Shown here: one piece after another, positions 18,104 through 22,029 of the stretch
Numbering within the stretch: the first letter of the stretch is position 1
Layout: each line of letters starts with the position of its first letter
Assembly: GCA_031459855.1 (NCBI GenBank)
Contig: JAVKHP010000001.1
Span: forward strand, 478,059-542,058
Source of the DNA: Armatimonadota bacterium
Lineage (GTDB): Bacteria > Sysuimicrobiota > Sysuimicrobiia > Sysuimicrobiales > Humicultoraceae
Length of the DNA stretch: 64,000 nt
Direction: 5' to 3'
Position numbers and translations under genes: made by a program
The notes under the pieces: model-generated
Told to the model about the DNA's origin: nothing
Databases searched by the model: none
The model's input: the letters and a program-made list of their open reading frames with translations, nothing else

Positions 18104-18427
18104 CTAGACCCGCGGCTTGGCGGCGCGCGGTGTACGCGGGGGCAGCTCAAGCGCCTCCAGCGCCGCACGGGCGTCCTCCCAGGTGACGTTGCCCAACGCG
18201 CCCGCGTCGGCCAGCCGGTCCATGGCGACGCGCACCGGGACGCCGAGCCAGTCCGCGGCCTCGCGGAGCGAGATCCTGCCGGCGGCGTAAAGCTCCGCCA
18301 CGTAGCGGTCGAGCCCGGCGGCGACGATCCGCCGCAGGATCGCCGAGCGGTCCAGGTTATCGCGCCGCGCTGCCCGGTCGATGGCCCTGACCAGCGCCTT
18401 AGGCAGGCGCACGGGAACCACTTCCAC
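18104..18427 (-). CDS. ribbon-helix-helix/UPF0175-like antitoxin
   Basis: 107 residues from GTG 18427 with GGAGGG upstream. VVPVRLPKALVRAIDRAARR and RSAILRRIVAAGLDRYVAEL give a short beta strand plus two helices like RHH proteins. ISLREAADWLGVPVRVAMDRL follows as a UPF0175-type helix-turn-helix. Starts 3 nt after the PIN toxin gene, so toxin precedes antitoxin, the reverse of the common order. Confidence 0.75.
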   Translation of the reverse strand: MEVVPVRLPKALVRAIDRAARRDNLDRSAILRRIVAAGLDRYVAELYAAGRISLREAADWLGVPVRVAMDRLADAGALGNVTWEDARAALEALELPPRTPRAAKPRV

Positions 18428-18430
18428 CCG

Positions 18431-18952
18431 TCATCCCTCCCTCTTGTGCACTGCCGCAAGCGCGGCTCTGCACACCTCGTATTCCGCCGTGCTGATGGTT
18501 CGCCGCAACGCGTCCAGCCATCCGAGAGCCTCCCGGGCGGTGGCGAGGCCCTCGCGGGCAAGGAGCACGAGCACGGCGCCCGGCGTGATAGGGCGCGTGC
18601 CGAGCAGCCGAAGCCGGTGCAGCAGCCGCCGGTCGTCGGAGACGATGAAGACCCGAGCGCCGCCCGACGCGCTCACCCTGCGGAACAGGCGGTAAACCTC
18701 ACGCTCCCCACCCGCCGGGAGCACGTCCTCGGCATCCGCGGGCTCGTCTCCCGCGTGTGCCACCTGGACCCGTCGAGCCTGCACGTTCCTCTCCAGCACG
18801 AGGGCATCGTCGTAACCATGCGCCTTGCCCTCCACCACGGCCTCGCGGTAGACCGCCTCTGGTATCAGGACCTGGAAGGCTCCGACCACGGCCTCTTTGG
18901 CCCCGGCCAGCGTGAGCTTTAGCAGCGCGTCCGTGTCCATGACGAGACGCAT
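18431..18952 (-). CDS. PIN-domain toxin (VapC-like)
   Basis: 173 residues. Acidic PIN residues are visible: MDTDALLKL (Asp5/Asp7), IPEAVYREAV (Glu in helix 2) and VSDDRRLL (Asp in strand 4). Expected to be a Mg-dependent endoribonuclease blocked by the downstream RHH protein. ATG 18952 is only about 10 nt from a good -10 box, so its mRNA is probably leaderless. Confidence 0.78.
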   Translation of the reverse strand: MRLVMDTDALLKLTLAGAKEAVVGAFQVLIPEAVYREAVVEGKAHGYDDALVLERNVQARRVQVAHAGDEPADAEDVLPAGGEREVYRLFRRVSASGGARVFIVSDDRRLLHRLRLLGTRPITPGAVLVLLAREGLATAREALGWLDALRRTISTAEYEVCRAALAAVHKREG

Positions 18953-18953
18953 C

Positions 18954-18990
18954 GTATACGAATTATATCATTCGTATACAGATATGTCAC
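18954..18990 (-). promoter_or_regulatory. toxin-antitoxin promoter and operator
   Basis: On the minus strand GTGACA (18990-18985), 17-bp spacer and TATAAT (18967-18962) form a near-consensus sigma-70 promoter. A perfect 10-bp inverted repeat, GTATACGAAT (18954-18963) and ATTCGTATAC (18970-18979), covers the -10 box. Transcription should begin about 18955, right at the ATG. The arrangement fits autorepression by the toxin-antitoxin complex. Confidence 0.8.
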
Positions 18991-19203
18991 GAGGTCCGCC
19001 CGCAGCCTGTCGTCCTCCGCTCCGGTGACCCACGCTGGCGGCTCCCTCAGCCGGTCCGCTCCCAAACCTCCCGCACGTGCTGGCCCTGCCGGCTGGGAGT
19101 CTCGAGTCGCCCGTCCCCGCTTTGCCGGGGCCTGGGCGAGGGTTGCCTCCGCAAGTTTTAACAGACACAGAGGTGCCCGCTGGCAACGTGTGGCGTCGTG
19201 CCC

Positions 19204-19209
19204 TATACT
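19204..19209 (+). promoter_or_regulatory. -10 box ahead of riboswitch
   Basis: TATACT, one mismatch from consensus, lies about 15 bp before the riboswitch begins. The -35 (TGGCAA, 17 bp upstream) is weak. Confidence 0.45.
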
Positions 19210-19221
19210 TGAAAACGCACC

Positions 19222-19400
19222 ACCAACTCCATAGCCGCCCGACGCCGAATCCCTGCCCAGGCAGGGAGCGGGGGAACCACCCCGGGGTTCTATGGCCCCG
19301 GGCGCGTTCGTGGGGCGAAGGTCGCAGCCGCGACCGGGGGCGCTCTCGACCCCAGCCCGTCAGCTAACCTCGCAGGCGACCGAGAGAGGGCTCCCTGGCA
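19222..19400 (+). ncRNA. c-di-AMP riboswitch (ydaO/yuaA leader)
   Basis: Conserved blocks of the ydaO-yuaA class occur in the right order: GCCGAATCC, GCGGGGGAACCAC, GGGGCGAAG, then CCCGTCAGCTAACCTCGCAG and GGCGACCGAGAGAGGGC. Variable hairpins (CCCTGCCCAGGCAGGG; a GGCC-rich stem) sit between them. Boundaries are approximate. This class binds two c-di-AMP molecules and usually turns genes off by termination. Here it leads directly into a strong hairpin and the trehalose biosynthesis gene. Confidence 0.9.
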
Positions 19401-19403
19401 TCA

Positions 19404-19445
19404 CGCGACGGCCCGGAGACCTTCTCCGGGCCGTCGCGCATCGTT
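19404..19445 (+). terminator. riboswitch-coupled terminator hairpin
   Basis: Perfect 16-bp stem, CGCGACGGCCCGGAGA (19404-19419) with its complement 19423-19438, loop CCT, followed by CATCGTTTCCC (weak T run). It begins 4 nt after the riboswitch and ends 47 bp before the otsBA start, the expected site of an expression platform. Confidence 0.75.
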
Positions 19446-19484
19446 TCCCGCCGGCGCGGGTGTGCTCAGCGGAGCCGTGATCCC

Positions 19485-21887
19485 ATGGCGGACATCGGAC
19501 CTGCAACGGGGACTTCGGAGACGGCGGGCGCACGCCCCCGCGAGGAGATCCGCCAGGCGCTGCGCGGCCGACCGCTCGTGGTCGTCAGCAACCGCGAGCC
19601 CTACGTTCACCGACGCACCGCACGGGGGCTGGACGTCGAACGCCCGGCCGGGGGGTTGGTGGCTGCCCTGGACCCCGTGCTGCGGCAGGTCGGCGGCGCG
19701 TGGGTCGCGTGGGGCAGCGGCGACGGCGACTTCGACGTCACCGACACGCAGGGCCGGGTGGCGGTGCCCCCCGAGGCGCCCGGGTACGTGCTGCACCGCG
19801 TGCGCCTCTCGGGTACCGAGGTCGAACGCTTCTATCACGGCTACGCGAACCAGGCGCTGTGGCCGCTGTGCCACATGGCCACCGACAAGGCCCGGTTCTC
19901 CCGTCGCTTCTGGCGCGCCTATTGCGCGGTGAACGAGCGCTTTGCCGACGCCACGCTGCAGGCAGCCGACGCCGACGCCGTGGTCTGGGTGCACGACTAC
20001 CACCTGGCGCTGCTGCCCCGGGTGCTGCGGGAGCGACGCCCCGATGCGTTCCTGATGCACTTCTGGCACATCCCGTGGCCCGCGTGGGACGTGCTGCGCA
20101 TCTGCCCCCAGCGCGGCGACCTGCTGGACGGCCTGCTGGGGAGTAACCTCGTGGGCTTCCACCTGCCGCGTCACGTCGAGAACTTCCTCGACTGTGTCGA
20201 GCGCGAGCTCGGTGCCGCCGTCGATGCGGCCGCCGGCACGGTCACCTACCGCGGCCGGCAGACCCTGGTCGCCGCCCTCCCCATCAGCATCGACGTGGCG
20301 GCGTGGCAGGCGCTGGCCACCTCGCGCGCGTGCGAGCGGTGGATGGCCCATCTCCGCCGCCGGTTCCGGCTGGCCGACCGCCAGGTGATCGTCGGCGTCG
20401 ACCGGCTCGACTACACCAAGGGCCTGCCCGAGCGCTTGCGGGCGCTGGACCTGTTCTTCCGCCGCCATCCGACGTTCCAGGGGCGCGTCGTCTTCGTGCA
20501 AAAGGCGGCGCCCAGCCGGACGCGCATCCGGGCCTACCGCGAGCTCCAGGAGCACGTGGAGGCCGAGATCGCGCGCATCAACCGGCAGTACGGCACCCCC
20601 GACTGGCAACCCATCGTCTACGTGCCGCGCCCGCTGCCCGCCGCGGGCATGGCCGCCCTCTACCGGCTGGCCGACGTGTGCCTGGTCACCTCGCTGCTGG
20701 ACGGCATGAACCTGGTCGCCAAGGAGTTCGTGGCATGCCAGCACGACCTGCGGGGCGTGCTGCTGTTGAGCGAGCTGGCCGGCGCCATCGAGCAGGCGCC
20801 GTGGTCGGTGGCGATCAACCCCTACGACCCCGAGGGCATGGCGGACGCACTGGCCGACGCCCTGGCGATGCCGCCGGGGGATCGCGCACGGCGCATGGAG
20901 CAACTGCGGGCGCAGGTGGCCCGCCACGACGTGTACCACTGGATGGCGCAGCACGTCCGGACGGCGGCGCGGCTGCTGGAGGCCCGCACCCAGACCGGGT
21001 GGCTCTTCGCCCACCTGGATACTGTCAGGGCGCACGTGCAGGCCCGGGCCCACCTGGTGGTCGTGCTCGACTTCGATGGGACGCTGGCGCCCATCGTCGA
21101 CCGCCCCGAGGAGGCGGCAATGGTCGATGGCGTGCGCGAGCTGCTGGTGGCACTGCACGCCCCACCGCGGTCGCGCGTGGCGGTCATCAGCGGACGCGCC
21201 CTGGCCGACCTGTGCGCACGCGTGGGCCTCGACGGCGTGCACTACGCCGGCAACCACGGGCTCGAGCTGTCCGACCCGGCATGGGGCACCGCCCCGCCGG
21301 CAGACGGCGCGACGGGTGCTCTCCTCGCGCGCTGCGCGAGGAGGCTGCGCGAGCGGCTGGCCCCCGTGCCCGGGGTGCTCGTCGAGGACAAGGGCGTGAG
21401 CGTCGCGGTGCACCTGCGGCTGGTGCCGCGGGAGGCCGTCGGCCCGGTGGTCAACGAGGTGCTGGACGCGGTGGGCGCGTGTCCGCCCGGTCAGCTCGAG
21501 GTGCGCCGGGGGAAGATGGTCGTGGAGATCCGTCCCGCCGTCGACTGGGACAAGGGCCGTGCGGTGCGCTCGCTGCTGGAGACCGTGGTCGGAGCCGACT
21601 GGCCGGCACAGGCCGCGGTGATCTACGTGGGCGACGACCAGACCGACGAGGACGCGTTTGCGGCCCTGGGCCCCGGCGGCATCACCGTCCGCGTCGGGAC
21701 GGACGCCGTGCCCACCGCGGCGCGGTATCGCCTGCGCGATCCGCACGAGGTGGGTCGGTTCCTGACGATGCTGGTGCACTGGCAGGCCCCACGGACGCCG
21801 ACACCGGACCCCGACCACGTCGGCACGCCCCCGTACGGGCGCACGGGCGCGGCGACCTTGACGGTCCCCCGCGCGCCGGTAAGGTAG
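19485..21887 (+). CDS. otsBA: trehalose-6-phosphate synthase/phosphatase fusion
   Basis: 800 residues in two domains. Residues about 20-500 are GT20 synthase: VVSNREPYVHRR, PAGGLVAAL, VWVHDYHLALLPRVLRER, HIPWPAWDVLRICP, GVDRLDYTKGLPERL and LLDGMNLVAKEFVACQ. Residues about 525-770 are a HAD phosphatase: VVVLDFDGTLAPI (nucleophile Asp), VISGRAL, YAGNHGLEL and YVGDDQTDEDAF. Makes trehalose from UDP-glucose and glucose-6-phosphate in one polypeptide. The last ~25 residues come from a 69-bp tandem repeat. Glucosylglycerol synthesis is a possible alternative for GT20 members. Confidence 0.93.
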   Translation: MADIGPATGTSETAGARPREEIRQALRGRPLVVVSNREPYVHRRTARGLDVERPAGGLVAALDPVLRQVGGAWVAWGSGDGDFDVTDTQGRVAVPPEAPGYVLHRVRLSGTEVERFYHGYANQALWPLCHMATDKARFSRRFWRAYCAVNERFADATLQAADADAVVWVHDYHLALLPRVLRERRPDAFLMHFWHIPWPAWDVLRICPQRGDLLDGLLGSNLVGFHLPRHVENFLDCVERELGAAVDAAAGTVTYRGRQTLVAALPISIDVAAWQALATSRACERWMAHLRRRFRLADRQVIVGVDRLDYTKGLPERLRALDLFFRRHPTFQGRVVFVQKAAPSRTRIRAYRELQEHVEAEIARINRQYGTPDWQPIVYVPRPLPAAGMAALYRLADVCLVTSLLDGMNLVAKEFVACQHDLRGVLLLSELAGAIEQAPWSVAINPYDPEGMADALADALAMPPGDRARRMEQLRAQVARHDVYHWMAQHVRTAARLLEARTQTGWLFAHLDTVRAHVQARAHLVVVLDFDGTLAPIVDRPEEAAMVDGVRELLVALHAPPRSRVAVISGRALADLCARVGLDGVHYAGNHGLELSDPAWGTAPPADGATGALLARCARRLRERLAPVPGVLVEDKGVSVAVHLRLVPREAVGPVVNEVLDAVGACPPGQLEVRRGKMVVEIRPAVDWDKGRAVRSLLETVVGADWPAQAAVIYVGDDQTDEDAFAALGPGGITVRVGTDAVPTAARYRLRDPHEVGRFLTMLVHWQAPRTPTPDPDHVGTPPYGRTGAATLTVPRAPVR

Positions 21888-22024
21888 CAGGTGCAGCAGG
21901 CGAGCGCGCAGCAGGGCGCGGCGACCTTGACGGTCCCCCGCGCGCCGGTAAGGTAGCAGGTGCAGCAGGCGAGCGCGCAGCAGGGCGCGGCGGCCTTGAC
22001 GGCCCCCCGCACGCCGGTAAGGTA
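21845..22024 (+). repeat. 69-bp tandem repeat, about 2.6 copies
   Basis: Units begin near 21845, 21914 and 21983. Copies 1 and 2 are nearly identical; copy 3 has a few substitutions and runs into the next gene's start. Each holds ACCTTGACGG and CCGGTAAGGT, which can pair imperfectly, and CAGGTGCAGCAGGCGAGCGC. The otsBA stop codon lies in copy 1. Because 69 is divisible by 3, the same stop recurs in frame in every unit. Confidence 0.9.
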
Positions 22025-22029
22025 GAGGT

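Follow-up and report, generated by a model that had tools for sequence, protein, structure and literature searches.

At the locus described here, a riboswitch-like leader directly precedes a gene for trehalose synthesis on the forward strand of the window, that is, the whole 64-kb stretch of DNA that was analysed. Its features, read from upstream to downstream, are the following.

19180-19209 (+): promoter-like site CTGGCA-18-TATACT, from a consensus scan (9/12 matches)
19233-19393 (+): c-di-AMP (ydaO/yuaA) riboswitch aptamer, RF00379, from a covariance-model match
19280-19306 (+): GC-rich insertion of about 27 nt within the aptamer, from alignment A1 and a large insert in the RF00379 alignment
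19343-19348 (+): pseudoknot 5' strand CUCUCG, complementary to 19381-19386
19381-19386 (+): pseudoknot 3' strand CGAGAG, with which the proposed switching strand begins, from complementarity
19384-19390 (+): putative antiterminator, 5' side of the outer helix, GAGAGGG, pairing with 19420-19426 and overlapping the pseudoknot 3' strand, from covariation
19391-19394 (+): putative antiterminator, 5' side of the inner helix, CUCC, pairing with GGAG at 19415-19418, from growing-transcript folds
19404-19438 (+): 16-bp hairpin, proposed terminator stem-loop, from folding energy and a position conserved in relatives
19420-19426 (+): putative antiterminator, 3' side of the outer helix, CCUUCUC, covering hairpin loop and start of the 3' arm, from complementarity, covariation and the core CCCGGAGACCTTCTCCGGG
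19439-19450 (+): weak U-tract CAUCGUUUCCCG, 4 U of 12, from the sequence
19471-19474 (+): likely Shine-Dalgarno sequence GGAG, from the sequence, 10 nt before the ATG at 19485
19485-21887 (+): otsAB, fused trehalose-6-phosphate synthase (GT20) and trehalose-6-phosphatase of 800 aa, from NF011071, PF00982 and PF02358

The aptamer, the trehalose gene and their host

An earlier note, made from the letters of the DNA, had assigned the leader to the ydaO class, and the covariance search that it called for bears this out: RF00379 matches the plus strand at 19233-19393 over the full length of the model (1-134), with a score of 62.7 bits where the gathering score is 38, and with E = 3.7e-12. It is the only copy in the 3.19-Mb host genome. 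The conserved core motifs are retained, with the core block CAGCTAACC at 19361-19369, and the insertion of about 27 nt is not found in the aligned relatives; among the 20 matches to RF00379 in the phylum, the window copy scores lowest. The promoter-like site, a consensus-scan match that is by itself no evidence of function, ends 23 nt upstream of the aptamer match, and a TATAAT-like hexamer occurs at the same spot in the leaders of many relatives.

The downstream open reading frame is an equivalog-level match to NF011071 (bifunctional trehalose-phosphate synthase/phosphatase; 687.8 bits against a cut-off of 634) and contains both Pfam domains, PF00982 and PF02358 (trehalose-phosphatase). The fusion that had been proposed therefore stands, but its name otsBA does not, as OtsA precedes OtsB. 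The closest public relatives of this protein come from metagenome-assembled genomes (MAGs) labelled Armatimonadetes. A near-perfect 69-bp tandem repeat (21845-22029; 2.7 copies, 96% match) covers the 3' end of otsAB and reaches as far as the start of the following gene. On the other side of the leader, the minus strand at 18104-18952 encodes a ribbon-helix-helix protein and a small open reading frame without a family match, in a toxin-antitoxin-like layout divergent from the riboswitch, and an AT-rich inverted repeat, GTATACGAAT-TATATC-ATTCGTATAC, at 18954-18979 lies over the promoter region of the divergent gene and is a possible ribbon-helix-helix operator.

The host genome (four contigs, 97.7% complete) encodes a single DAC domain (PF02457), in a protein that also has CdaA_N, so that the search for a cyclase suggested in the earlier note returned one of the CdaA type. 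A GlmM-like phosphohexomutase is encoded downstream in the same region. The arrangement cdaA-cdaR-glmM is a known one, and the host region resembles it, as judged on the cdaA and glmM parts alone. Four TrkA_C domains are also encoded in this genome.

Distribution across the phylum and beyond

The phylum sample consisted of 43 genomes belonging to one class and one order. CSP1-3/Sysuimicrobiota, formerly placed within Armatimonadota, has been described as comprising one class and one order (PMC11604079), which fits this sample, and the phylum sampled is thus probably Sysuimicrobiota/CSP1-3. The DAC domain is present in 39 of the 43 genomes and RF00379 in 17, with 20 copies in total. In every one of these 17 genomes, one copy heads a trehalose operon, which in one case (G015) is cut by the contig end. 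The first gene after the riboswitch encodes OtsAB in 12 genomes, BrkB in three and TreT in two. Two of the BrkB cases (G016 and G018) continue from BrkB into OtsAB; in G015 the contig soon ends, and this genome is not an independent case because its leader is identical to that of G018. These identical leaders (L012 in G015, L011 in G018) come from genomes that have been assigned to different genera, yet their identity suggests that the same DNA was placed in two bins. The order in G017 is TreT, a BrkB-like frame and a truncated OtsAB, while the riboswitch-led operon of G001 (L132, 2002-7487) comprises TreT, an MscS channel, a BrkB family protein and OtsAB. Three genomes contain a second RF00379 copy; the genes behind these second copies encode a protein of unknown function, a solute-binding protein and a G8-domain protein. 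At G003:C34:1495-3629, the homology to OtsAB falls into two overlapping parts, one for OtsA and one for OtsB, reflecting either a MAG frameshift or two genes.

OtsAB-like genes also occur in 12 genomes of the phylum that do not have the switch. The possibility that weak riboswitches had been overlooked there was rejected, since RF00379 was found at E 0.1 or better before none of these genes at the 14 loci scanned, and the switch is accordingly not obligatory. Five changes of the switch label suffice on an OtsAB tree, whereas shuffled labels need 10.3, which indicates that the switch is clustered, with gains or losses. The hairpin is missing from one leader (L017, in G008), and there a likely Shine-Dalgarno sequence, a few nucleotides before the ATG, shares bases with the pseudoknot strand GAGAGAGGGG, which suggests translational control in that case.

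Beyond the phylum, RF00379 was found before an OtsA-type gene at one of 49 loci scanned (L081:2024-5372; Omnitrophota UBA10174, DOGZ01000014.1). That copy scores 53.6 bits and is accompanied by a hairpin with a long U-tract; downstream of it lie an OtsA whose GT20 domain is preceded by a long, membrane-like N-terminal extension and then a separate OtsB. In Verrucomicrobia UBA693 (DBMR01000092.1), the gene for an OtsA that carries a dCache-like sensory region at its N-terminus is preceded, on its own strand, by an nhaA-I RNA (L070:1940-1993; RF03057, 48.2 bits, GA 37), which is a candidate ion-type riboswitch before a trehalose gene. This genome also contains a copy of RF00379, which stands upstream of a gene for a Kup-like K+ transporter (L139, read from sequence).

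Taken together, it appears rather likely that in this phylum the c-di-AMP riboswitch has trehalose synthesis as its core output, through OtsAB, BrkB-OtsAB or TreT-(MscS)-BrkB-OtsAB, that the pseudoknot 3' strand can be reused either in an antiterminator or over a ribosome-binding site, and that the OtsA case in Omnitrophota may represent an independent recruitment.

Hairpin, antiterminator and the proposed switch

The perfect 16-bp hairpin claimed in the earlier note is present at 19404-19438 as CGCGACGGCCCGGAGA-CCU-UCUCCGGGCCGUCGCG (-36.3 kcal/mol; z = -8.4 against dinucleotide shuffles), and among the perfect inverted repeats of this kind in the window no other is as long. The spacing of 4 nt given for it had to be revised, as the hairpin begins 10 nt from the end of the Rfam consensus and 17 nt from the end of the pseudoknot strand (19386). 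Its stem has the GC-rich character and the length, at least 8 bp, of an intrinsic terminator stem-loop, and the window hairpin, with its weakly U-rich tail, did not pass a terminator consensus scan. The 12-nt tails that follow the hairpin in 18 leaders contain 5.8 U on average (a single U in the relative L010), against 1.6 expected from the base composition of the window, which makes the hairpin family look like an intrinsic terminator with the window copy at its weak end. The core of the hairpin arm and loop, CCCGGAGACCTTCTCCGGG, occurs once in each of nine of the 43 genomes, in all nine directly after RF00379; the view that the hairpin is a repeated genomic terminator element was rejected on the grounds of this single copy per genome, always behind the aptamer.

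As the RF00379 class requires, the 3' strand of the pseudoknot (CUCUCG.CGAGAG) pairs with a CUCU loop, and the helix measures 6-11 bp in all 18 aligned hairpin-bearing leaders, across several sequence versions. In these leaders this 3' strand has a second complement in the loop and 3' arm of the hairpin. When partners were permuted among the 18 leaders, none of 20,000 permutations matched the helix score of the leaders' own strand/terminator pairs; when the register was fixed, 91 of 98 cells paired, permutation gave a mean of 83.3 and 18 of 20,000 permutations reached as high, although, the leaders being related, neither figure is an exact probability. Compensatory changes on both sides occur at pair 5 (A-U, G-C, C-G) and pair 6 (G-C, C-G), and since the covarying pairs fall mostly within the hairpin loop, conservation of the stem does not explain them. 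The outer helix reads GAGA(A/G)GG.CCUUCUC in most leaders, GAGACGG.UCGUCUC in L013 and GAGAGC.GCUCUC in three f3 members.

Folds of the transcript segment that begins where P1 ends and stops where the 3' arm begins gave a nested antiterminator in most of the 18 leaders. For the growing transcript of the window, folding energies, which exclude the pseudoknot and tertiary contacts, make the antiterminator the minimum-free-energy structure from base 19424 to base 19433 (-27.9 kcal/mol), whereupon the terminator is favoured, from 19434 onwards; blocking the pseudoknot strand brings this change forward to 19427. By computation, then, the leader has an antiterminator that uses an aptamer strand and is mutually exclusive with the terminator. 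Its early formation, and its loss once the strand is blocked, fit a kinetic control in which the ligand removes the antiterminator.

It might be supposed that the window copy works chiefly at the level of translation or of mRNA stability, through a ligand-dependent fold that hides the ribosome-binding site of otsAB or shields a decay site. The weak U-tract, the hairpin-less L017 with its strand over a likely Shine-Dalgarno sequence and the translational c-di-AMP riboswitch at nlpC of C. glutamicum (PMC9960051) would agree with this view, as would the complementarity between the window linker GGCUCC (19389-19394) and the Shine-Dalgarno region GGAGCC (19471-19476). However, this last pairing is unconserved (mean z 0.16 in 11 leaders) and is equalled in 14% of window shuffles, so that it was rejected as a conserved second control layer, while the relatives that share the hairpin have U-rich tails and the antiterminator covaries; such a mode of action is therefore considered unlikely in the window. 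Even less credit is given to the view that the aptamer is a degenerate relic and that the hairpin merely ends an upstream transcript: the lowest score in the phylum, the insertion and the poor U-tract could be read in this way, but the core motifs and the pseudoknot and antiterminator complementarity are intact, a promoter-like site lies directly upstream and the upstream neighbouring open reading frame is on the opposite strand.

The locus is thus likely to be a ydaO-class c-di-AMP riboswitch that turns trehalose synthesis OFF at the level of transcription. At the level of sequence, this reading is carried by the aptamer, the pseudoknot/antiterminator complementarity, its covariation, the gene linkage across the phylum and the cyclase encoded in the genome. 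c-di-AMP is a turgor signal. In the mechanism proposed, the nascent leader would fold the aptamer; when c-di-AMP is scarce, at low turgor or low K+, the pseudoknot would be released and the freed GAGAGGG could pair with CCUUCUC, with CUCC.GGAG nested inside, so that the antiterminator would form first and RNA polymerase would read into otsAB. With c-di-AMP bound, the 3' strand would be locked in the pseudoknot and the antiterminator crippled, the 16-bp hairpin would form early, transcription would stop and no trehalose would be made. An ON switch, by which c-di-AMP would raise otsAB expression, is scarcely to be expected, for although such an arrangement is invertible in principle, no evidence in its favour was found, the strand held by the ligand is the one that the antiterminator needs, so that binding should favour termination, and the studied members of the class are OFF switches that terminate transcription on c-di-AMP binding (PMC6488665, PMC9960051).

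The direction of the proposed OFF switch would follow from these studied members by analogy, and the leader at this locus is expected to bind the ligand, to terminate transcription and to respond to an osmotic signal. Control by RNA termination, as the earlier note had it, is supported by the linkage in 17 genomes and by a covarying antiterminator predicted to compete with the pseudoknot, and its "direct osmotic circuit" can reasonably be inferred. As the aptamer stands directly before the trehalose gene and this pairing recurs across the phylum, these bacteria probably switch trehalose production off at high c-di-AMP.

Comparison with known systems

In Bacillales and Clostridia, the known targets of ydaO include transporters of ions, osmoprotectants and amino acids, and in Actinobacteria they include cell-wall genes (PMC9960051); a review counts ydaO among the riboswitches with an expression platform that docks with the aptamer (PMC10907184). 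Within the open literature, to which the full gene lists of the original ydaO surveys are external, no report linking trehalose or otsA with a c-di-AMP riboswitch was found; the class is known, and trehalose is apparently a new, phylum-conserved target. If this reading is true, c-di-AMP gains a directly testable target in the compatible-solute synthesis of an uncultured phylum, and trehalose joins beta-lysine (ablA) among the osmolytes whose synthesis is under riboswitch control. Together with the conserved antiterminator, the hairpin-less L017 would also form a natural pair for studying how a single aptamer strand might drive transcriptional control in one case and translational control in the other.

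With kimA (ydaO) of B. subtilis and kdpFABC of B. thuringiensis, the window leader shares the RF00379 aptamer, a hairpin in the position of an intrinsic terminator and the expected OFF behaviour, whereas its target is trehalose synthesis rather than K+ transport, its U-tract is weaker and its host comes from an uncultured phylum that is neither Bacillota nor Actinomycetota. For ablA, whose product makes beta-lysine, an osmolyte precursor, a c-di-AMP riboswitch is already known (PMC9337991); there, in Dehalobacter sp. CF, as is proposed here, synthesis of a compatible solute or its precursor is shut off, but solute and enzyme differ, and the ablA riboswitch stands in tandem with a Na+ riboswitch, in contrast to the single aptamer of the window. 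C. glutamicum nlpC (PMC9960051) shares the aptamer family and in its translational mode resembles L017; its target, however, is a cell-wall peptidase and it has no canonical terminator. Finally, compared with fused OtsA-OtsB proteins (NF011071), the window protein is a full-length, equivalog-level match, and what would set it apart is its predicted control by a c-di-AMP riboswitch.
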